A DNA stretch of 64,000 nt. Source: Pseudidiomarina marina (GTDB lineage: Bacteria > Pseudomonadota > Gammaproteobacteria > Enterobacterales > Alteromonadaceae). A program made the translations under genes and the position numbers. Location of the stretch: positions 248,001-312,000 of the forward strand of contig NZ_PIPZ01000001.1 in assembly GCF_003987045.1 (NCBI RefSeq), written 5' to 3'. Each line of letters opens with the position of its first letter. The first letter of the stretch is position 1. Shown piece by piece: positions 32,305-51,705 of this stretch. A model generated the notes under the pieces. That model saw nothing but the letters and a program-made list of their open reading frames with translations. It was not told where the DNA came from and did not search any database.

Positions 32305-32322
32305 TTTAAACGGCCGTTTAAA
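32305..32322. promoter_or_regulatory. 18-bp palindromic operator, PsrA-like
   Basis: TTTAAACGGCCGTTTAAA is a perfect palindrome touching the gltA -35 box. Its core, AAACGGCCGTTT, differs by one base from the site before the acyl-CoA dehydrogenase operon (47204-47221). The AAAC-N4-GTTT form matches operators of the TetR-type fatty-acid regulator PsrA, so PsrA-like control is proposed. No psrA gene lies in the window. Confidence 0.55.
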
Positions 32323-45529: not shown

Positions 45530-46090
45530 TTACAACTCAGCGACTGCTTCTTCCGCTGCGGCTAACGCTTGTTGGCGTGGCTCGTCACCGAGGTTGACGC
45601 CTTCTGCACGTACCACATGAACATCAGTAATGCCGATAAAGGCTAAGGCATTGCGTAGATAGCTCTCTTGGTGGTCGAGCGCTGCTGCATCGCCCTGGCT
45701 GTAAATACCACCACGACCCGAGGCAATGTATGCAGTTTTTCCTTGCAACAATCCCTGCGGACCTTGCTCGGTATATTTGAACGTCACACCAGCCTTCAAT
45801 ATGCGATCAAGCCAAGCTTTGAGTTGGGTTGGAATAGTGAAGTTGTACATTGGCGCACCAATAACTAAAACATCAGCCGCCTGAACCTCCGCAATCAACT
45901 CATCGCTCAGTGGGCTTTCGCTGGCTAATAATGCTTCGGCATCGAGATGAGGTACCGAATTTACCACTAAATCACGATACGTTACGTCAGCTTGTTGCTG
46001 TGTGGTTAAGTGGGTAACGATGTCGCGGCTAATTTTGCGACTGACTGACTGTTCAATAAAGATACCTGAGTCAATATGTAAAATTTTCAT
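45530..46090 (-). CDS. azoR: FMN-dependent NADH:quinone/azo oxidoreductase AzoR
   Basis: A 186-residue flavodoxin-fold protein of the AzoR/AcpD family. MKILHIDSG with SVSRKIS is the FMN phosphate loop, PMYNFTIPTQLKAWLDRILKAGVTFKYTE is the family signature, and SGRGGIYS contacts the flavin. It reduces quinones and azo compounds with NADH and protects against thiol or quinone stress. It is divergent from a LysR-type gene across a 146-bp gap containing two related palindromic sites. Confidence 0.93.
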   Translation of the reverse strand: MKILHIDSGIFIEQSVSRKISRDIVTHLTTQQQADVTYRDLVVNSVPHLDAEALLASESPLSDELIAEVQAADVLVIGAPMYNFTIPTQLKAWLDRILKAGVTFKYTEQGPQGLLQGKTAYIASGRGGIYSQGDAAALDHQESYLRNALAFIGITDVHVVRAEGVNLGDEPRQQALAAAEEAVAEL

Positions 46091-46150
46091 AGAAACCTCT
46101 CAAATTCATGTGCGCTGTGGTTTTTTATTCAATGACGTAAGTCTAATAAT

Positions 46151-46166
46151 GTTCCATTTATGATGG
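46151..46166. promoter_or_regulatory. Imperfect LysR-type operator (distal half-site)
   Basis: GTTCCATTTATGATGG matches the first 12 bases of the reverse complement of the perfect site at 46191. It lies between azoR and the LysR gene, about 40 bp from the other copy, as expected for recognition and activation sites bound by a LysR tetramer. Confidence 0.5.
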
Positions 46167-46190
46167 TAGATGGTTATATTGGGAATAAGC

Positions 46191-46206
46191 GTTCCATAAA
46201 TGGAAC
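46191..46206. promoter_or_regulatory. Perfect palindromic LysR-type operator
   Basis: GTTCCATAAATGGAAC has 7-bp inverted arms around AA, 31 bp before the LysR start codon. It is the best candidate for the recognition site of the adjacent regulator, acting on azoR and on its own gene. Confidence 0.6.
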
Positions 46207-46236
46207 GGAATTGAACAGTTTAATAGGAAGAGGTCG

Positions 46237-47169
46237 ATGGCGATTCCAGACTTAACCAATTACTTAATTTTTGCGCGGGTAGTTGCAGCGGGCAGTATTA
46301 GTGCAGGTGCTCGCGAACTCAATATGCCAAAATCAACAGTGAGCCGTCGTTTGACAGAACTCGAGGAAGAGCAAGGCGTTCGTTTACTTCATCGAAGTAC
46401 GCGAGGCCTCAAACTGACCGATATCGGGCAAGCGTTCTTAGTACACTGTGAAACATTGGTGGCAGCCGCTGAAGCCGCACAACAAGTTACGCAAATGGTG
46501 CAGGAAACGCCAAGAGGTGAAATACACGTTAGCTCGCCTTATGCCATTAGCCAAAGCATGCTAGTTACCTTATTACCTGAGTTTATGGCGTTGTATCCTG
46601 AGGTACGGATTAATTTAATGGTGACAAATCGGCCAGTGAATCTCATCGATGAAGGTATTGATGTTGCGTTACGTGTCCGACCTTATATCGAAGATTCCTC
46701 ATTGATAGCGCGCCCGCTGGCGGATTCCCCAGGCACACTCTATCGCAGTCCCACTCGAGGCGAGGTGGCGCGTATAGAAAAACCTTTGCAGCATCCACTT
46801 GATCTTGTGCACTATCCGCACCTGAGTTTGCACTATACCAGCGGTCGGTATCGCTATGATTTAACATCAAAAAGCGGCGAAAAACTAACCGTAAGTTTTC
46901 GTCCGCGCTTAATCACCGATGACATGATTGTGTTACGTGAAGCGGCAATTGAAGGCTTAGGCATTGTCTCATTGCCGAACTACCTGTGCGAACAAGCCAT
47001 CCAAGAAGGCTTACTTGAGCCGGTGTTGCCTGACTGGGCATTGCCTGTTGGTATTATGCATATGGTTTACCCTTACCGTCGCGGCTTGTTGCCGGCCGTC
47101 CGGGTGTTTATTGATTTTCTCGCCGAGCGACTTCCCGCTACGGCACAACGATCATTAAATACGATATAA
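46237..47169 (+). CDS. LysR-family transcriptional regulator
   Basis: 310 residues. The N-terminal winged helix (NYLIFARVVAAGSISAGARELNMPKSTVSRRLTELEE) is followed by LLHRSTRGLKLTDIG and an effector-binding domain of two periplasmic-binding-protein-like halves. It belongs to the large LysR subgroup often paired with quinone or azo reductases. Divergent from azoR with two palindromes between them, so it most likely senses an electrophile or quinone and controls azoR; the ligand is unknown. Confidence 0.9.
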   Translation: MAIPDLTNYLIFARVVAAGSISAGARELNMPKSTVSRRLTELEEEQGVRLLHRSTRGLKLTDIGQAFLVHCETLVAAAEAAQQVTQMVQETPRGEIHVSSPYAISQSMLVTLLPEFMALYPEVRINLMVTNRPVNLIDEGIDVALRVRPYIEDSSLIARPLADSPGTLYRSPTRGEVARIEKPLQHPLDLVHYPHLSLHYTSGRYRYDLTSKSGEKLTVSFRPRLITDDMIVLREAAIEGLGIVSLPNYLCEQAIQEGLLEPVLPDWALPVGIMHMVYPYRRGLLPAVRVFIDFLAERLPATAQRSLNTI

Positions 47170-47203
47170 AGGCTTTTATTTTCACGCTGACTCACTACAA
47201 TCA

Positions 47204-47221
47204 TTCAAACGGTCGTTTAAA
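47204..47221. promoter_or_regulatory. PsrA-like operator before the acyl-CoA dehydrogenase operon
   Basis: TTCAAACGGTCGTTTAAA is a near-perfect palindrome 34 nt before the dehydrogenase start. Its core, AAACGGTCGTTT, differs by one base from the palindrome at the gltA promoter, which suggests the same regulator. The AAAC-N4-GTTT pattern fits PsrA-type fatty-acid-responsive repressors. Confidence 0.6.
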
Positions 47222-47255
47222 TAATAATTAAACTCAAAATCAGCAGGGCAGGCTT

Positions 47256-48482
47256 ATGGATTTTACGCCAAGTGAAAAAACTCTCAGTTATCGCAAGCGC
47301 TTGATTGCGTTCATGCGAGAACATATTGAACCGATTGAAGCGAATTATCACAAAGAAAATCGCCGCTTAAACCCTGATTCGAATTGGCGGCATTGGCAAG
47401 TTGCGCCCATTGTTGAAGAATTAAAAGAGAAAGCTAAGCAAGCCGGGCTGTGGAACTTATTTTTGCCCGATGCCAAATTAGGGGCTGGACTGACGACGCT
47501 TGAGTATGCACCGCTTGCTGAGGTGATGGGCCATAGTTTGCTCGCCCCGGAGATTTTCAATTGTAATGCACCGGATACGGGCAACATGGAAGTGCTGTAT
47601 CACTTTGGTACCGATGCACAAAAACAGCAGTGGTTAACGCCATTATTGAACGGTGAGATTCGCTCCGTATTTTGTATGACCGAACCTGATGTTGCCTCTT
47701 CTGATGCCACAAATATGCAAGCGCGTATTGTCGCTGATGGCGATGAAGTTGTTATCAATGGACGCAAATGGTGGTCGACAGGGCTTGGTCATCCTCATGC
47801 TAAGTTTGCCATAGTGATGGGTTTAACCGACGCTGATGCACCAAAGCATCAACGACACTCAATGGTGCTCGTGCCGCTTGATACGGCTGGTGTGACGGTG
47901 GAGCGTATGCTTCCTGCATTTGGTGAATATGACGCGCCGTACGGACATGGCGAGGTACTATTTGAAAACGTTCGGGTGCCTAAAGCAAATGTTATCGGTG
48001 GTCTTGGCGATGGCTTCAAAATTGCCCAGGGACGATTGGGGCCGGGTCGCATTCACCACTGTATGCGCGCTTTAGGAGCTGCCGAGAAAGCGTTACAACT
48101 GTTTATACGTCGAGGGCAGGAACGTATTGGTTTTGGTAAGCCGATACTGCAATTAAATGGTAACCTTGAACGTGTAGCCGATATGCGGATTGCAATTGAT
48201 CAAGCCCGCTTGTTAACGTTTTACGCAGCGTGGAAAATCGATCAAGTTGGCGCAATGAAAGCGCTCGCTGAAATCTCCGCAATTAAGGTTGCGGCTCCGA
48301 ATGTATTGCAGCAGGTGGTGGATGAAGCGATTCAAATTTATGGCGGAGCCGGCATGAGCCATGATACGCCGCTTACCGCACTGTTTGCGATGGCTCGGGC
48401 ATTACGCATCGCTGACGGCCCTGATGCAGTGCATCGTAGCACCATAGCCAAGGTTGAGCTCGCCAAGTATCGGGAGGCCTAA
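47256..48482 (+). CDS. Acyl-CoA dehydrogenase, ACAD10/11-like
   Basis: 408 residues, FAD-dependent. FCMTEPDVASSDATNMQA is the flavin/substrate segment; INGRKWWSTGLGHPHAKFAIVMG, RGQERIGFGKPI and QIYGGAGMSHDTPLTALFAMAR follow. The closing ADGPDAVH, in place of the YEGT of classical enzymes such as MCAD, is the pattern of the ACAD10/ACAD11 group. In mammals and in Pseudomonas LvaC that group acts on 4-phosphorylated acyl-CoA. The next gene is an APH-type kinase, which in animal ACAD10/11 is fused to the dehydrogenase. First gene of a three-gene operon under a PsrA-like operator. Confidence 0.88.
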   Translation: MDFTPSEKTLSYRKRLIAFMREHIEPIEANYHKENRRLNPDSNWRHWQVAPIVEELKEKAKQAGLWNLFLPDAKLGAGLTTLEYAPLAEVMGHSLLAPEIFNCNAPDTGNMEVLYHFGTDAQKQQWLTPLLNGEIRSVFCMTEPDVASSDATNMQARIVADGDEVVINGRKWWSTGLGHPHAKFAIVMGLTDADAPKHQRHSMVLVPLDTAGVTVERMLPAFGEYDAPYGHGEVLFENVRVPKANVIGGLGDGFKIAQGRLGPGRIHHCMRALGAAEKALQLFIRRGQERIGFGKPILQLNGNLERVADMRIAIDQARLLTFYAAWKIDQVGAMKALAEISAIKVAAPNVLQQVVDEAIQIYGGAGMSHDTPLTALFAMARALRIADGPDAVHRSTIAKVELAKYREA

Positions 48483-49550
48483 GTGACCGATAACCAGCTA
48501 GAAGATCAAGCTACATCAGTGCGCTCTGGCGAAGAATTGCCCGAGCAGCGCTTGAGTGATTGGCTACGAACACAATTGCCAGAACTTTCAGGAGCAATGC
48601 GCATTACGCAATACAGTGGCGGCGCTTCAAATTGGACTTATCGCATACAATTCGATAATGCTGATCTCATATTGCGCCGACCTCCGGCGGGAACCAAAGC
48701 CAAGTCGGCTCATGATATGGGCCGCGAATATCGTCTGCAGAAGGCTTTGAAACCAGTATTTCCGTATGTGCCCCAAATGCGATTGTATACCGATGATGCA
48801 AGTATTATTGGCGATGAATTTTATGTCATGGATCGGGTTGCTGGGATTATTCCACGCAAGAACATGCCGCGTGAATTAGCTTTAACTGAAGCGCAAACTC
48901 GAACCCTATGCTTGAATGCCCTCGATGTACTTATTGAGCTGCATCGAGTTGATATCGAAGCTGCCGGCCTAAGCGATTTAGCCAAGGGCGCTGGTTACAC
49001 CGAGCGCCAAGTTCATGGTTGGAGCGAACGCTATAAAAAAGCGAAAACTTGGAACGTACCTTCGGGCAAAAAATTGATGCAGTGGTTGGCAGCGAATATG
49101 CCCAAACATGAAACGATTTGTATGACCCACAATGATTTTCGTTTTGATAATTTGGTGCTAGATGTCAATGATCCGACCAAGATCATTGGTGTGCTCGATT
49201 GGGAGTTGGCGACGTTAGGTAATCCGTTGATGGATTTAGGGAATAGCCTCGCTTATTGGATTCAGGCCGATGATGACCGTATTGCACGCTCGACCCGTCG
49301 TCAACCAACGCACTTGCCGGGCATGCTAACGCGCCAAGAAGTTATTGAATATTACTGCGATAAAATGGACGTAGATGTCAAAGATTTCCGTTTTTACGAG
49401 GTGTTCGGATTATTTCGTTTGAGTGTGATTGCTCAACAAATTTATTTCCGTTACCACCACAAACAAACCCGCAATCCAGCTTTCAAGAATTTTTGGTTCT
49501 TAGTGCATTATTTGCACTGGAGAGCTCGCAAACTAATAAAACAAGGATAA
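48483..49550 (+). CDS. APH-family kinase, LvaA/ACAD10-11 kinase-like
   Basis: 355 residues, aminoglycoside-phosphotransferase fold. A substrate/ATP loop, QYSGGASNWTYRI, is followed by LILRRPPAG. The catalytic loop THNDFRFDNLVLD carries Asp and Asn, and GVLDWELATLGNPLMDLG holds the metal-binding Asp. The start is GTG with GGAGG close by, one base after the dehydrogenase stop. Homologues paired with acyl-CoA dehydrogenases phosphorylate the 4-hydroxyl of hydroxyacyl-CoA; antibiotic resistance is unlikely given this context. Confidence 0.85.
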   Translation: MTDNQLEDQATSVRSGEELPEQRLSDWLRTQLPELSGAMRITQYSGGASNWTYRIQFDNADLILRRPPAGTKAKSAHDMGREYRLQKALKPVFPYVPQMRLYTDDASIIGDEFYVMDRVAGIIPRKNMPRELALTEAQTRTLCLNALDVLIELHRVDIEAAGLSDLAKGAGYTERQVHGWSERYKKAKTWNVPSGKKLMQWLAANMPKHETICMTHNDFRFDNLVLDVNDPTKIIGVLDWELATLGNPLMDLGNSLAYWIQADDDRIARSTRRQPTHLPGMLTRQEVIEYYCDKMDVDVKDFRFYEVFGLFRLSVIAQQIYFRYHHKQTRNPAFKNFWFLVHYLHWRARKLIKQG

Positions 49551-49553
49551 TTC

Positions 49554-50306
49554 ATGCGCAAAACAATATTGATAACTGGCGCAAGCTCTGGACTGGGCGA
49601 GGGCATGGCGCGAGAGTTCGCCAAGTATGGCCGAAATTTAGCATTGTGCGCTCGGCGCACGGAACGCCTTGATGCCTTGAAGCAAGAGTTAGAACAACGC
49701 TACCCAGATATTAAAGTAAGCGTGAAGGCGCTAGATGTGAATCAGCATGACGACGTATTTGCTGTATTTAAAGCGTTCAAAGAAGAGTTTGGCAGTATCG
49801 ATCGGGTGATTGTGAACGCTGGAATGGGTAAAGGGGCATCGCTGGGTACTGGATATTTCTATGCCAATGTGCAAACTGCGCAAACCAACTTCGTGGCGGC
49901 ATTAGCACAATGTGAGGCAGCGCTCGAGATCTTCCGTGAACAAAATAGCGGGCATTTGGTAACCATAAGTTCCATTAGTGCACTACGCGGAATGCCGCGA
50001 GCGATGACTGTTTATGCGGCGACAAAGGCGGGGTTACTGGCGCTTACAGAAGGGATTCGTGCCGACTTAATTAAATCACGCTCGCCGATCAAAGTGAGTG
50101 CCATTTTACCCGGATACATTCGCTCTGAAATTAATGAAAAAGTGAAGAATACCCCGTTCATGATTGATACCGAAACTGGCTGTCGTAAGTTAGTTCAAGC
50201 GATAGAAAAAGAGCCCGTGCAGGCCTATGTGCCAACTTGGCCATGGGCGCTTATCGGCTTTTTGATGAAGCGCTTACCATTGAAATGGGTCATGAAACTC
50301 GGTTAA
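49554..50306 (+). CDS. Short-chain dehydrogenase/reductase, LvaD-like by context
   Basis: A 250-residue Rossmann enzyme. NAD(P)-binding TGASSGLGEGMA is at residues 8-19, an Arg-rich loop (CARRTERL) favours NADP(H), NAG lies near 90, and the catalytic Ser is in SSISA and Tyr-xxx-Lys in YAATK. The C-terminus is hydrophobic (WALIGFLMKRLPLKWVM) and may touch the membrane. It is 3 nt after the kinase. In the levulinate pathway an SDR interconverts 4-oxo- and 4-hydroxyacyl-CoA; that role is inferred here from gene order. Confidence 0.82.
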   Translation: MRKTILITGASSGLGEGMAREFAKYGRNLALCARRTERLDALKQELEQRYPDIKVSVKALDVNQHDDVFAVFKAFKEEFGSIDRVIVNAGMGKGASLGTGYFYANVQTAQTNFVAALAQCEAALEIFREQNSGHLVTISSISALRGMPRAMTVYAATKAGLLALTEGIRADLIKSRSPIKVSAILPGYIRSEINEKVKNTPFMIDTETGCRKLVQAIEKEPVQAYVPTWPWALIGFLMKRLPLKWVMKLG

Positions 50307-50782
50307 AGCGGGCACTCTTTTTCTTCGCGTTTGGTGGTGACGCTGATGGTCGCTGGACGCCCATTTGCGTCATCATACACCACTGAGGATTTGGCGATAT
50401 TTAAGGCCCCACGACTGTGACCGTGATGAATAACTAATTCGCCATCACGCTGCCACGATATTGTTAAACAGGGGCCTTGTTCAGCGGTCGCAATTCGTAG
50501 CCAATCATTCGCTTTGGGTTCAAACAACCATACTTCAAAACCATGCCAGCTATTGCCAGAGTTGCCACGCTGACAATCATAAACGTGAATCTCTGCTGCA
50601 CCGTCGGCAGTTGCAATGAGCTGCAAAGATTGACAGTTTGCAGCGACCGGCGGATCAGGTTCAAATACCGTGAGTTTATAAATCAATACCGCAGTAAACA
50701 GCACGGCAAGCGTTACCCCTGCGGCAAGAAACCATAAGCCAAGGCGGCGAGTTGCTTTACTCACAAAGCTGACAATTCCCAT
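50303..50782 (-). CDS. Membrane-anchored protein of unknown function
   Basis: 159 residues with one N-terminal membrane helix (LGLWFLAAGVTLAVLFTAVLIY) and a mainly beta-strand extracytoplasmic part with three or four Cys (ANCQSLQL, VYDCQRG, GPCLTIS and the C-terminal ECPL), so disulfides are likely. I recognise no family. The start overlaps the pirin stop by one base, so it is co-translated with pirin. Its stop shares TTAA with the convergent SDR gene. Confidence 0.7.
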   Translation of the reverse strand: MGIVSFVSKATRRLGLWFLAAGVTLAVLFTAVLIYKLTVFEPDPPVAANCQSLQLIATADGAAEIHVYDCQRGNSGNSWHGFEVWLFEPKANDWLRIATAEQGPCLTISWQRDGELVIHHGHSRGALNIAKSSVVYDDANGRPATISVTTKREEKECPL

Positions 50783-51705
50783 TAGTTACCTTTTTTTGTC
50801 TGGTATTGAACAACCTTTCCAAAGCGCTCATGGCCGGCATCCCAATCTTGCTGGGCTTGCTCGACGCGTTGCTGCGACGCACTAACAAAATTCCACCACA
50901 TTTTTACTGGCTGTTCAAATGCCTCACCACCTAATACTAAAATCTGGGTATCGGCAGCAAACTCCAGAACCACATGTTGACGATTGCTACCCAGACTTAT
51001 TAATTGATGCGCGCGAGTGGTTTTCTCAAGCGTTTCGAGTTGCCCACTAACAACGTAGATGCCGTATTCAAAATCACGATCAAGATGTAACTCGACAGCG
51101 GTTGTACGTGGTGTCTGCAATAACATCGCCATACTTGGACTAAAGCTTAGTGCCGGACTATTCCAGCGGCGCTGCTCGGTCGCATAAGTTCCGCAAATAA
51201 GCGTAGCGGTGCAATCGCCGAGACTAAACTTTGGCACCTGTTGATAATGATCGAAGCGCGGTTCTGTTTGTTCATGCTCAGGCGGAAGTGCTCGCCACAG
51301 TTGTAATCCATGTAACGGTTGATCAGGATCGTTATCGGCCACTTCAGCATGGGTAATGCCTCGTCCAGCTGTCATTAAATTTAACTGACCGCTGCGTAAA
51401 GACTGTTCATAACCTAAACTATCTTGATGGAGAAGTTGCCCAGACAGCAACCACGTGATGGTCTGCAAGCCAATATGTGGGTGTGGCGGAACATCAAACT
51501 GGCGATAATTGGCTGGTGCAACTGGACCAAAGTGGTCTAAGAAGCACCACGGTCCAATCATTCGAATAGCGCGTTGTGGCAGAATACGGTGAACCGTTAA
51601 ATGGGGCGTTAACTGTCGCTGCAATGATCCGTAGACGCTGGCATCATGTTGTAAATGCTCTGATTCGCAGGTTTCAAGTTGAGTTTCTTGCGGGGCTCTG
51701 GTCAT
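50782..51705 (-). CDS. Pirin-family protein
   Basis: A 307-residue bicupin. Metal-binding His residues are seen in PPHPHIGLQTITWLLSG and GRGITHAE, and the N-terminal signature MIGPWCFLDHFGP is typical of pirins. Members bind iron; some, such as YhhW, act as quercetin dioxygenases and others as redox-sensitive regulators, so the activity is open. It is followed by a one-base overlapping gene for a membrane protein of unknown function. The 130-bp region before the next plus-strand gene holds no other gene. Confidence 0.9.
   Translation of the reverse strand: MTRAPQETQLETCESEHLQHDASVYGSLQRQLTPHLTVHRILPQRAIRMIGPWCFLDHFGPVAPANYRQFDVPPHPHIGLQTITWLLSGQLLHQDSLGYEQSLRSGQLNLMTAGRGITHAEVADNDPDQPLHGLQLWRALPPEHEQTEPRFDHYQQVPKFSLGDCTATLICGTYATEQRRWNSPALSFSPSMAMLLQTPRTTAVELHLDRDFEYGIYVVSGQLETLEKTTRAHQLISLGSNRQHVVLEFAADTQILVLGGEAFEQPVKMWWNFVSASQQRVEQAQQDWDAGHERFGKVVQYQTKKGN

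Follow-up and report, generated by a model that had tools for sequence, protein, structure and literature searches.

A putative PsrA operator lies ahead of an operon encoding unfused ACAD10/ACAD11-type enzymes in Pseudidiomarina

Results

A three-gene operon of Pseudidiomarina marina probably encodes a fatty-acid-induced side branch of beta-oxidation. We propose, with a probability of roughly 0.7, that its products phosphorylate 4-hydroxyacyl-CoA and then remove the phosphate to yield 2-enoyl-CoA, under control of the regulator PsrA. The evidence suggests that the operon is an unfused marine counterpart of the mammalian ACAD10/ACAD11 enzymes. What is new here is the PsrA-type palindrome ahead of a kinase/ACAD operon. 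The relevant features of the window (the whole 64,000-nucleotide stretch that was analysed) are as follows.

32305-32322, no strand assigned: second PsrA-type palindrome, TTTAAACGGCCGTTTAAA, between gltA and sdhC; an internal check on the motif
47196-47201, + strand: TACAAT, -10-like, two bases ahead of the next palindrome
47204-47221, + strand: PsrA-type palindrome TTCAAAC-GGTC-GTTTAAA, 18 bp, 35-52 nt upstream of the ACAD start
47256-48482, + strand: acyl-CoA dehydrogenase (ACAD) gene, 408 aa; ACAD N, M and C domains (Pfam)
48483-49550, + strand: APH-fold kinase gene, 355 aa, GTG start; APH PF01636 (E 2.5e-44)
49554-50306, + strand: SDR gene, 250 aa; SDR PF00106 (Pfam)

The genes are tightly packed, as a first-pass annotation of this DNA had described. 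All three lie on the + strand with gaps of 0 and 3 nt: the GTG of the kinase directly follows the TAA stop of the ACAD gene, and the SDR gene begins 3 nt past the kinase stop. The motifs ADGPDAVH, HNDFRFDN and LDWE are likewise present as cited. Across the family, kinase and ACAD are found in the identical 33 of 59 genomes. A chance neighbourhood of the genes was rejected.

The window ACAD groups with ACAD11. Against solved chains it scores 537 bits with 4hr3 and 408 bits with mouse ACAD11, where the highest-scoring ordinary ACAD reaches 148 bits, and its identity to human and mouse ACAD11 is 50-51%. Seven mouse residues are tied to 4-phosphoacyl-CoA handling (R626, R631, H634, C635, M636, R637 and D753; PMC12440821). 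In our alignment all seven are kept in the window ACAD, as R260, R265, H268, C269, M270, R271 and D387. Among 131 aligned relatives, the full RRHCMRD set occurs in 125 of 127 at ≥45% identity and in all four below that level; the two that lack it deviate at Cys alone. Of this set, three ordinary ACADs encoded elsewhere in the genome have only R631, a residue general to ACADs. Human and mouse ACAD11 also share a 69-row clade with the window ACAD (SH-aLRT 100) in a quick tree that has a long-branch outgroup of three and leaves out ACAD10 and LvaC. Grouping with ordinary ACADs, which the first-pass annotation had named as the outcome that would tell against it, is thus not what bit scores, residues or tree show, and an ordinary ACAD identity was ruled out on these three counts. 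At class level, the ACAD tally is at least 28 of 274 at E ≤ 1e-90, with at most six candidates scored per genome. We propose that the window ACAD is a putative 4-phosphoacyl-CoA phospho-eliminase.

The kinase retains its key residues and belongs to a clade of its own. It scores 165.7 bits against ACAD11, is 34% identical to the mouse ACAD11 kinase, and carries R81 beside alphaC Glu82, R175, the catalytic D218 and N223. All 123 kinase relatives keep the catalytic Asp and the Asn, and 122 of them keep each of the two Arg positions that contact CoA; the published R86 is unmatched by number, and the Arg next to the alphaC Glu stands in for it. The genome encodes two further APH proteins that share the Asp, Asn and R176 positions, which leaves the Arg beside the Glu as the one discriminating residue. 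In a tree with long branches, the kinase groups with 9o56 in a distinct clade of 39 rows and not with the ACAD11 kinases, so that it could act on a different substrate. Identification of 9o56 as LvaA was dropped; its nearest plasmid relatives are from Cytobacillus and Deinococcus. None of the studies consulted assays this subclade with 4-hydroxyacyl-CoA; orthologues from Burkholderia, which may or may not belong to it, have been tested (PMC11342911).

A scheme in which the kinase uses another acyl-CoA, or a non-CoA hydroxy acid, and the ACAD performs a different elimination is very improbable. The separate kinase clade would fit such a scheme, but the CoA-contact Arg positions are conserved, and the occurrence of the kinase is identical to that of an ACAD with the phosphate-binding set. 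The 4-hydroxyacyl-CoA route put forward in the first-pass annotation is the best reading of the ACAD11 grouping, the phosphate-handling set and the retained kinase residues. We propose that the kinase is a putative 4-hydroxyacyl-CoA kinase.

The operator-like palindrome is conserved among the closest loci. The published PsrA site is TTCAAACN4GTTTGAA (PMC13104628), from which the window palindrome differs by one base; in the relative locus L124 the match is perfect. In all 17 of the closest named loci the site precedes ACAD (14 exact copies, three with one mismatch), with conserved half-sites and a variable centre. At ≤1 mismatch it occurs in 0 of the 53 remaining named loci that have an ACAD ORF, and the background expectation is 0.0005 per 250 nt. 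Other genera often have a divergent LysR gene and no PsrA-type site, so that the case for fatty-acid control extends only to this group. The region described in the first-pass annotation began at 47204, which is 52 nt ahead of the start codon of ACAD and coincides exactly with this palindrome; the palindrome went unmentioned there.

Exact sites are few. Within the 545,008 bases scanned (23% of the genome), TTnAAACN4GTTTnAA occurs four times: before the window operon, before psrA-fadE, before a gene for a 591-aa acyl-CoA dehydrogenase-family protein, and between gltA and sdhC. Averaged over 60 arrangements of the half-site letters, among them the true one, the count is 0.13, and none of the others exceeds 1. 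The TT/AA flanks were taken from the published palindrome and added after the core matches had been viewed; the core AAACN4GTTT alone is not enriched (21 found, 20.7 expected). Seven further sites in the 545,008 bases have one mismatch, six of them inside ORFs. In the scanned part, the core site is absent before fadD (locus L200) and before the fadE of locus L203. The psrA gene itself was identified by NF053516 (315.4 bits against a cut-off of 300) and is followed by a fadE-type gene. A consensus promoter scan gave no hit at the palindrome, and the region holds no excess of promoters (9, where shuffled sequence gives 8.0).

In Shewanellaceae, PsrA targets include gltA and sdh (PMC5343134). The terms “acyl-CoA dehydrogenase” and “phosphotransferase” do not appear in the main text of that paper, and those parts of the PsrA literature that were covered do not name a kinase/ACAD operon as a target. 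The window palindrome is probably a PsrA operator, and probably lies over the operon's own promoter. Operator conservation, the fit to PsrA and the small number of exact copies make a fatty-acid-induced branch of beta-oxidation the most likely role. Since the operator is just upstream, the operon should be induced by long-chain fatty acyl compounds, the presumed ligands of PsrA, and its substrates are then most likely 4-hydroxyacyl-CoAs from shortened fatty acids.

A marine lva operon for short 4-oxo or 4-hydroxy acids, with the SDR as LvaD, is an unlikely alternative. The enzyme types are those of lvaACD, and a levulinate cluster of Pseudomonas citronellolis (kinase, histidine phosphatase, LvaC and LvaD; PMC6692424) resembles the fuller operon of some relatives, which comprises ACAD, SDR, kinase, histidine phosphatase and SDR. 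The PsrA-type operator, however, points to fatty-acid-derived 4-hydroxyacyl-CoAs, and the levulinate-like substrate of the first-pass annotation finds no support. Its observation that no CoA ligase is nearby does stand: none of the eight AMP-binding matches of the genome lies in the window (four of the eight were typed, one as FadD above its cut-off). The near neighbours include no ActP-like transporter-sized ORF, as judged by ORF list rather than profile. Where a ligase-like gene adjoins ACAD (2 of 80 named loci), it is of the long-chain fatty-acid type, just below the family cut-off. The genome has no match to DUF6285, which we take to be LvaB. DUF6285 loci gave no lead to lva operons; the aligned ones have 34-38% ACAD identity and fall outside the 69-row clade.

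The SDR belongs to family PRK08251 (NF006099, 419.6 bits, cut-off 253), whereas a kinase-SDR-ACAD cluster of Caballeronia has a PRK07035 member, and one SDR of Azospirillum is of that family too; LvaD may resemble either. The SDR partner differs from lineage to lineage, and equating it with LvaD is unproven. We tentatively propose that it interconverts a 4-oxo and a 4-hydroxy (or another carbonyl/hydroxyl) acyl intermediate.

Azoreductase and pirin genes, both redox-linked, flank the operon. They would agree with a role of the kinase/ACAD pair in detoxifying 4-hydroxyalkenal products of lipid peroxidation rather than in a nutrient pathway. Such a role has been put forward for ACAD10/11 (PMC12440821), and we consider it slightly less likely still than the levulinate alternative. 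The operator indicates fatty-acid supply, not oxidative stress, and azoreductase-LysR acts as a separate cassette: 15 of the 17 closest loci carry it upstream, whereas in locus L130 it lies downstream and in locus L131 it was not seen. It was rejected as part of the operon unit because it is moved or missing in these two loci while the operator stays. Detoxification is nevertheless compatible with a beta-oxidation branch, because the chemistry is identical. Six of the 17 closest loci have a lactonase-like gene upstream (208.8 bits, below the cut-off of 360), perhaps simply through synteny.

Discussion

In the proposed pathway, a general ligase such as FadD would attach CoA, and the SDR would probably reduce a 4-oxo group to the 4-hydroxyl. 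The kinase would phosphorylate this 4-hydroxyl with ATP; the ACAD-fold enzyme would eliminate the phosphate, using FAD with no net oxidation, and general beta-oxidation enzymes would finish the 2-enoyl-CoA. The natural substrates are most likely 4-hydroxyacyl-CoAs from the shortening of hydroxylated or peroxidised fatty acids. Oleate hydratase was rejected as the supplier of hydroxy acids here, as the genome of this strain has no match; it is above cut-off in 4 of 59 family genomes, two with the kinase/ACAD pair and two without.

Our tentative view, held at somewhat less than even odds, is that the unfused kinase/ACAD10-11 pair is a built-in branch of bacterial fatty-acid beta-oxidation, here placed in the PsrA regulon, and clears the 4-hydroxyacyl-CoA roadblocks to which mid-chain hydroxy fatty acids give rise. 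On this view the levulinate pathway would be a specialised offshoot, and the fused mammalian enzymes would have inherited the older role. The origins of mammalian 4-hydroxy acids are described as largely unknown (PMC12440821). A marine genus with ACAD10/11 chemistry under a fatty-acid repressor site offers a simple genetic test of the purpose of the pathway. Furthermore, many bacterial genes labelled merely “acyl-CoA dehydrogenase” or “phosphotransferase” are probable 4-hydroxyacyl-CoA enzymes.

The nearest solved relatives, 4hr3 for the ACAD (a putative acyl-CoA dehydrogenase, 60% identity) and 9o56 for the kinase (an aminoglycoside phosphotransferase, 40% identity), are both listed without a stated function. 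Like the PsrA regulons of Shewanellaceae and Pseudomonas, the window genome has a TTCAAACN4GTTTGAA-type operator, a psrA gene and a gltA/sdh site; unlike them, as far as the consulted portions of that literature extend, it has a kinase/ACAD operon among the putative targets. The lvaABCDE operon of Pseudomonas putida resembles ours by gene type, in that kinase, ACAD and SDR are encoded by distinct genes of a single operon, but the window lacks its AMP-binding ligase. The mammalian comparison covers ACAD11. The window differs in having two separate genes, another kinase clade, an extra SDR and a fatty-acid operator, while kinase and ACAD form a unit in both, with identical ACAD11 catalytic and phosphate-binding residues.

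Results

Three genes lie almost without gaps on the + strand, behind a palindrome:

47204-47221, palindrome TTCAAAC-GGTC-GTTTAAA upstream of the ACAD gene, predicted PsrA-type operator
47256-48482, + strand, ACAD (acyl-CoA dehydrogenase), gene call
48483-49550, + strand, APH-fold kinase, GTG start abutting the ACAD stop
49554-50306, + strand, SDR, gene call

Every sequence motif quoted in the first-pass annotation was confirmed in these genes, and its start coordinate coincides with the palindrome at 47204. The Pseudidiomarina operon contains only ACAD, kinase and a PRK08251-like SDR (SDR1). The genome (2,411,077 bases; 2.41 Mb) has its closest named relatives in Pseudidiomarina and Idiomarina. 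Downstream of the operon (50303-51705) a 159-aa protein with no Pfam hit is encoded, kept in 16 of the 17 closest named loci and accompanied by a pirin gene in 13.

The dehydrogenase is of the ACAD11 type. Among solved structures, its nearest chain is 4hr3 (537 bits); human and mouse ACAD11 give 405-408 bits, and ordinary ACADs at most 148. The accessible text of PMC12440821 gives the residues of mouse ACAD11 that hold the 4-phosphate and act in catalysis as R626, R631, H634, C635, M636, R637 and D753, and their aligned counterparts here are R260, R265, H268, C269, M270, R271 and D387 (the paper's numbering being chain index + 1). Across 131 relatives from fetched loci, the full set occurs in 125/127 above 45% identity and 4/4 below it, the two exceptions differing solely at the Cys. 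At these positions, three ordinary ACADs encoded in this genome have GRIAVCE, GRLAAGA and CRIAWGE instead. In a 78-row tree (quick method, long outgroup branches, ACAD10 and LvaC not among the rows), the window ACAD shares a 69-row clade with human and mouse ACAD11 at support 100; ACADs that share these residues but are more distant fall outside it. The grouping with ordinary ACADs against which the first-pass annotation had set its assignment did not occur. In two loci (L227, L228), a DUF6285 gene follows a more distant pair of ACAD (34-38%) and kinase (25-27%), and these distant ACADs also retain the RRHCMRD set.

The kinase is distinct from that of ACAD11. Its top solved matches are 9o56 (262 bits) and then the ACAD11 kinase domain (166 bits). 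The catalytic Asp218 and Asn223 positions are kept in 123/123 relatives, Arg175 and Arg81 in 122/123 each. In a 52-row tree with long branches, the window kinase groups with 9o56 (support 95), outside the clade (support 99) that holds the ACAD11 kinase, 3dxp, others, and kinases from kinase-SDR-ACAD and ACAD-kinase-quinone-reductase-like clusters. Because of this separation, we infer from sequence that the unit pairs an ACAD10/11-type dehydrogenase with a second kind of kinase.

Kinase and ACAD co-occur. Both occur in the same 33 of 59 family genomes and are missing from the same 26 (kinase E<=0.001, ACAD E<=1e-90), although these genomes are related and the 33 are not independent events. Two genomes have both genes apart: about 20 kb in G019, unlinked in G024. 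Among the 80 named loci, our ORF caller found an intact kinase in 79, where the same-strand run includes SDR1 (69), ACAD (67), histidine phosphatase (43), a PRK05650-like second SDR, SDR2 (25), and an SBF-family transporter (13). The most complete arrangement, ACAD-SDR2-kinase-phosphatase-SDR1 with a divergent LysR, is seen for instance in Colwellia, Thalassotalea, Zhongshania, Reinekea and Amylibacter; a Pseudoalteromonas plasmid carries it too. Reduced or rearranged operons occur in Betaproteobacteria, Myxococcota, Bacteroidota and Azospirillum, the last with PRK07035 instead of PRK08251 as first SDR. Alteromonas-type loci (L139, L140, L154, L156-L158, L161-L163, L051) have the transporter in place of the ACAD, which in G024 (L051) lies elsewhere in the genome.

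The palindrome differs by one base from the published PsrA operator, TTCAAACN4GTTTGAA (accessible text of PMC13104628). It is present in all 17 nearest loci, its first base 34-73 nt ahead of the ACAD start, and matches TTnAAACN4GTTTnAA exactly in 14 and with one mismatch in 3, with seven different centres (background 0.0005 per 250 nt). Of the other named loci, 53 have an ACAD ORF, and none of these carries the site at up to one mismatch by our start calls; 10 of the 80 had no such ORF. TACAAT, taken for a candidate -10 box, stands two bases 5' of the site in the window and 15/17 nearest loci (TACACT in L124, farther away in L130); a generic promoter scan listed no promoter there. Divergent azoreductase and LysR genes (45530-47169) lie just upstream of the operon, as in 15 of the 17 loci; L130 and L131 keep the operator with the operon, though this pair is downstream in the former and not seen in the latter.

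We scanned 545,008 of the genome's 2,411,077 bases. The core AAACN4GTTT turned up 21 times against 20.7 expected, which is no enrichment. For the extended palindrome, TT/AA flanks from the published site were added after the core matches had been seen; it has four exact copies, and 60 arrangements of the half-site letters, the true one included, average 0.13, with no other exceeding one.

Exact copies of the extended palindrome
Site 1, 47204-47221, before the operon
Site 2, before psrA (NF053516, over cut-off), which is followed immediately by a fadE-type gene
Site 3, before a 591-aa acyl-CoA dehydrogenase-family gene
Site 4, 32305-32322, between gltA and sdhC, perfect PsrA-type palindrome

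Six of seven one-mismatch sites fall within ORFs; the seventh lies before a FadH/OYE-like gene. No core site, or narrower pattern, was found before fadD (locus L200) or the fadE of locus L203. The psrA gene (L204:6133-6828; contig C1 near 874-875 kb) is directly 5' of the fadE-type gene, and because it has its own exact operator, psrA-fadE looks autoregulated. Shewanellaceae PsrA targets include gltA and sdh (accessible text of PMC5343134); site 4 suggests that TCA genes of Pseudidiomarina may be under fatty-acid control, as in Shewanella.

Discussion

By analogy, the kinase would most likely phosphorylate 4-hydroxyacyl-CoA to 4-phosphoacyl-CoA, which the ACAD would convert to 2-enoyl-CoA. In the accessible parts of the sources, this route is demonstrated for ACAD10/11 (PMC12440821) and reported for LvaA and LvaC, levulinate enzymes of Pseudomonas (PMC11342911).

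The PsrA operator, a long-chain-type ligase adjoining the ACAD in 2/80 named loci (Dyella, Paraburkholderia) and an alpha/beta hydrolase near the kinase in 17/80 favour fatty acids over levulinate as substrates. Beta-oxidation shortening of mid-chain hydroxy fatty acids would yield 4-hydroxyacyl intermediates. Ricinoleate giving 4-hydroxy-C10 is an example in the discussion of PMC12440821. Oleate hydratase had no match in the genome, and therefore hydroxy acids would come from outside or from peroxidation. A lactonase-like metallo-beta-lactamase-fold gene (L131:3654-4601; signal peptide by eye) lies upstream in 6/17 closest loci (L131, L122, L123, L124, L126, L129). 4-Hydroxy acids form gamma-lactones on cyclisation.

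In the titles and abstract openings covered, with most subscription papers outside scope, the operon is undescribed in Idiomarinaceae and unnamed as a PsrA target. The operator may already be among the predictions of a database such as RegPrecise.

Phosphatase and second SDR seem dispensable in Pseudidiomarina, since the best match to that SDR in the genome shares 38% identity and sits on another contig, and PF00300 has only two matches there (34.3 and 20 bits). In other loci (e.g., L043, L220, L253), a histidine phosphatase (PF00300) is repeatedly found next to the kinase. It might serve proofreading by taking off the 4-phosphate, and the phosphatase-like domain of ACAD10 is a possible parallel.
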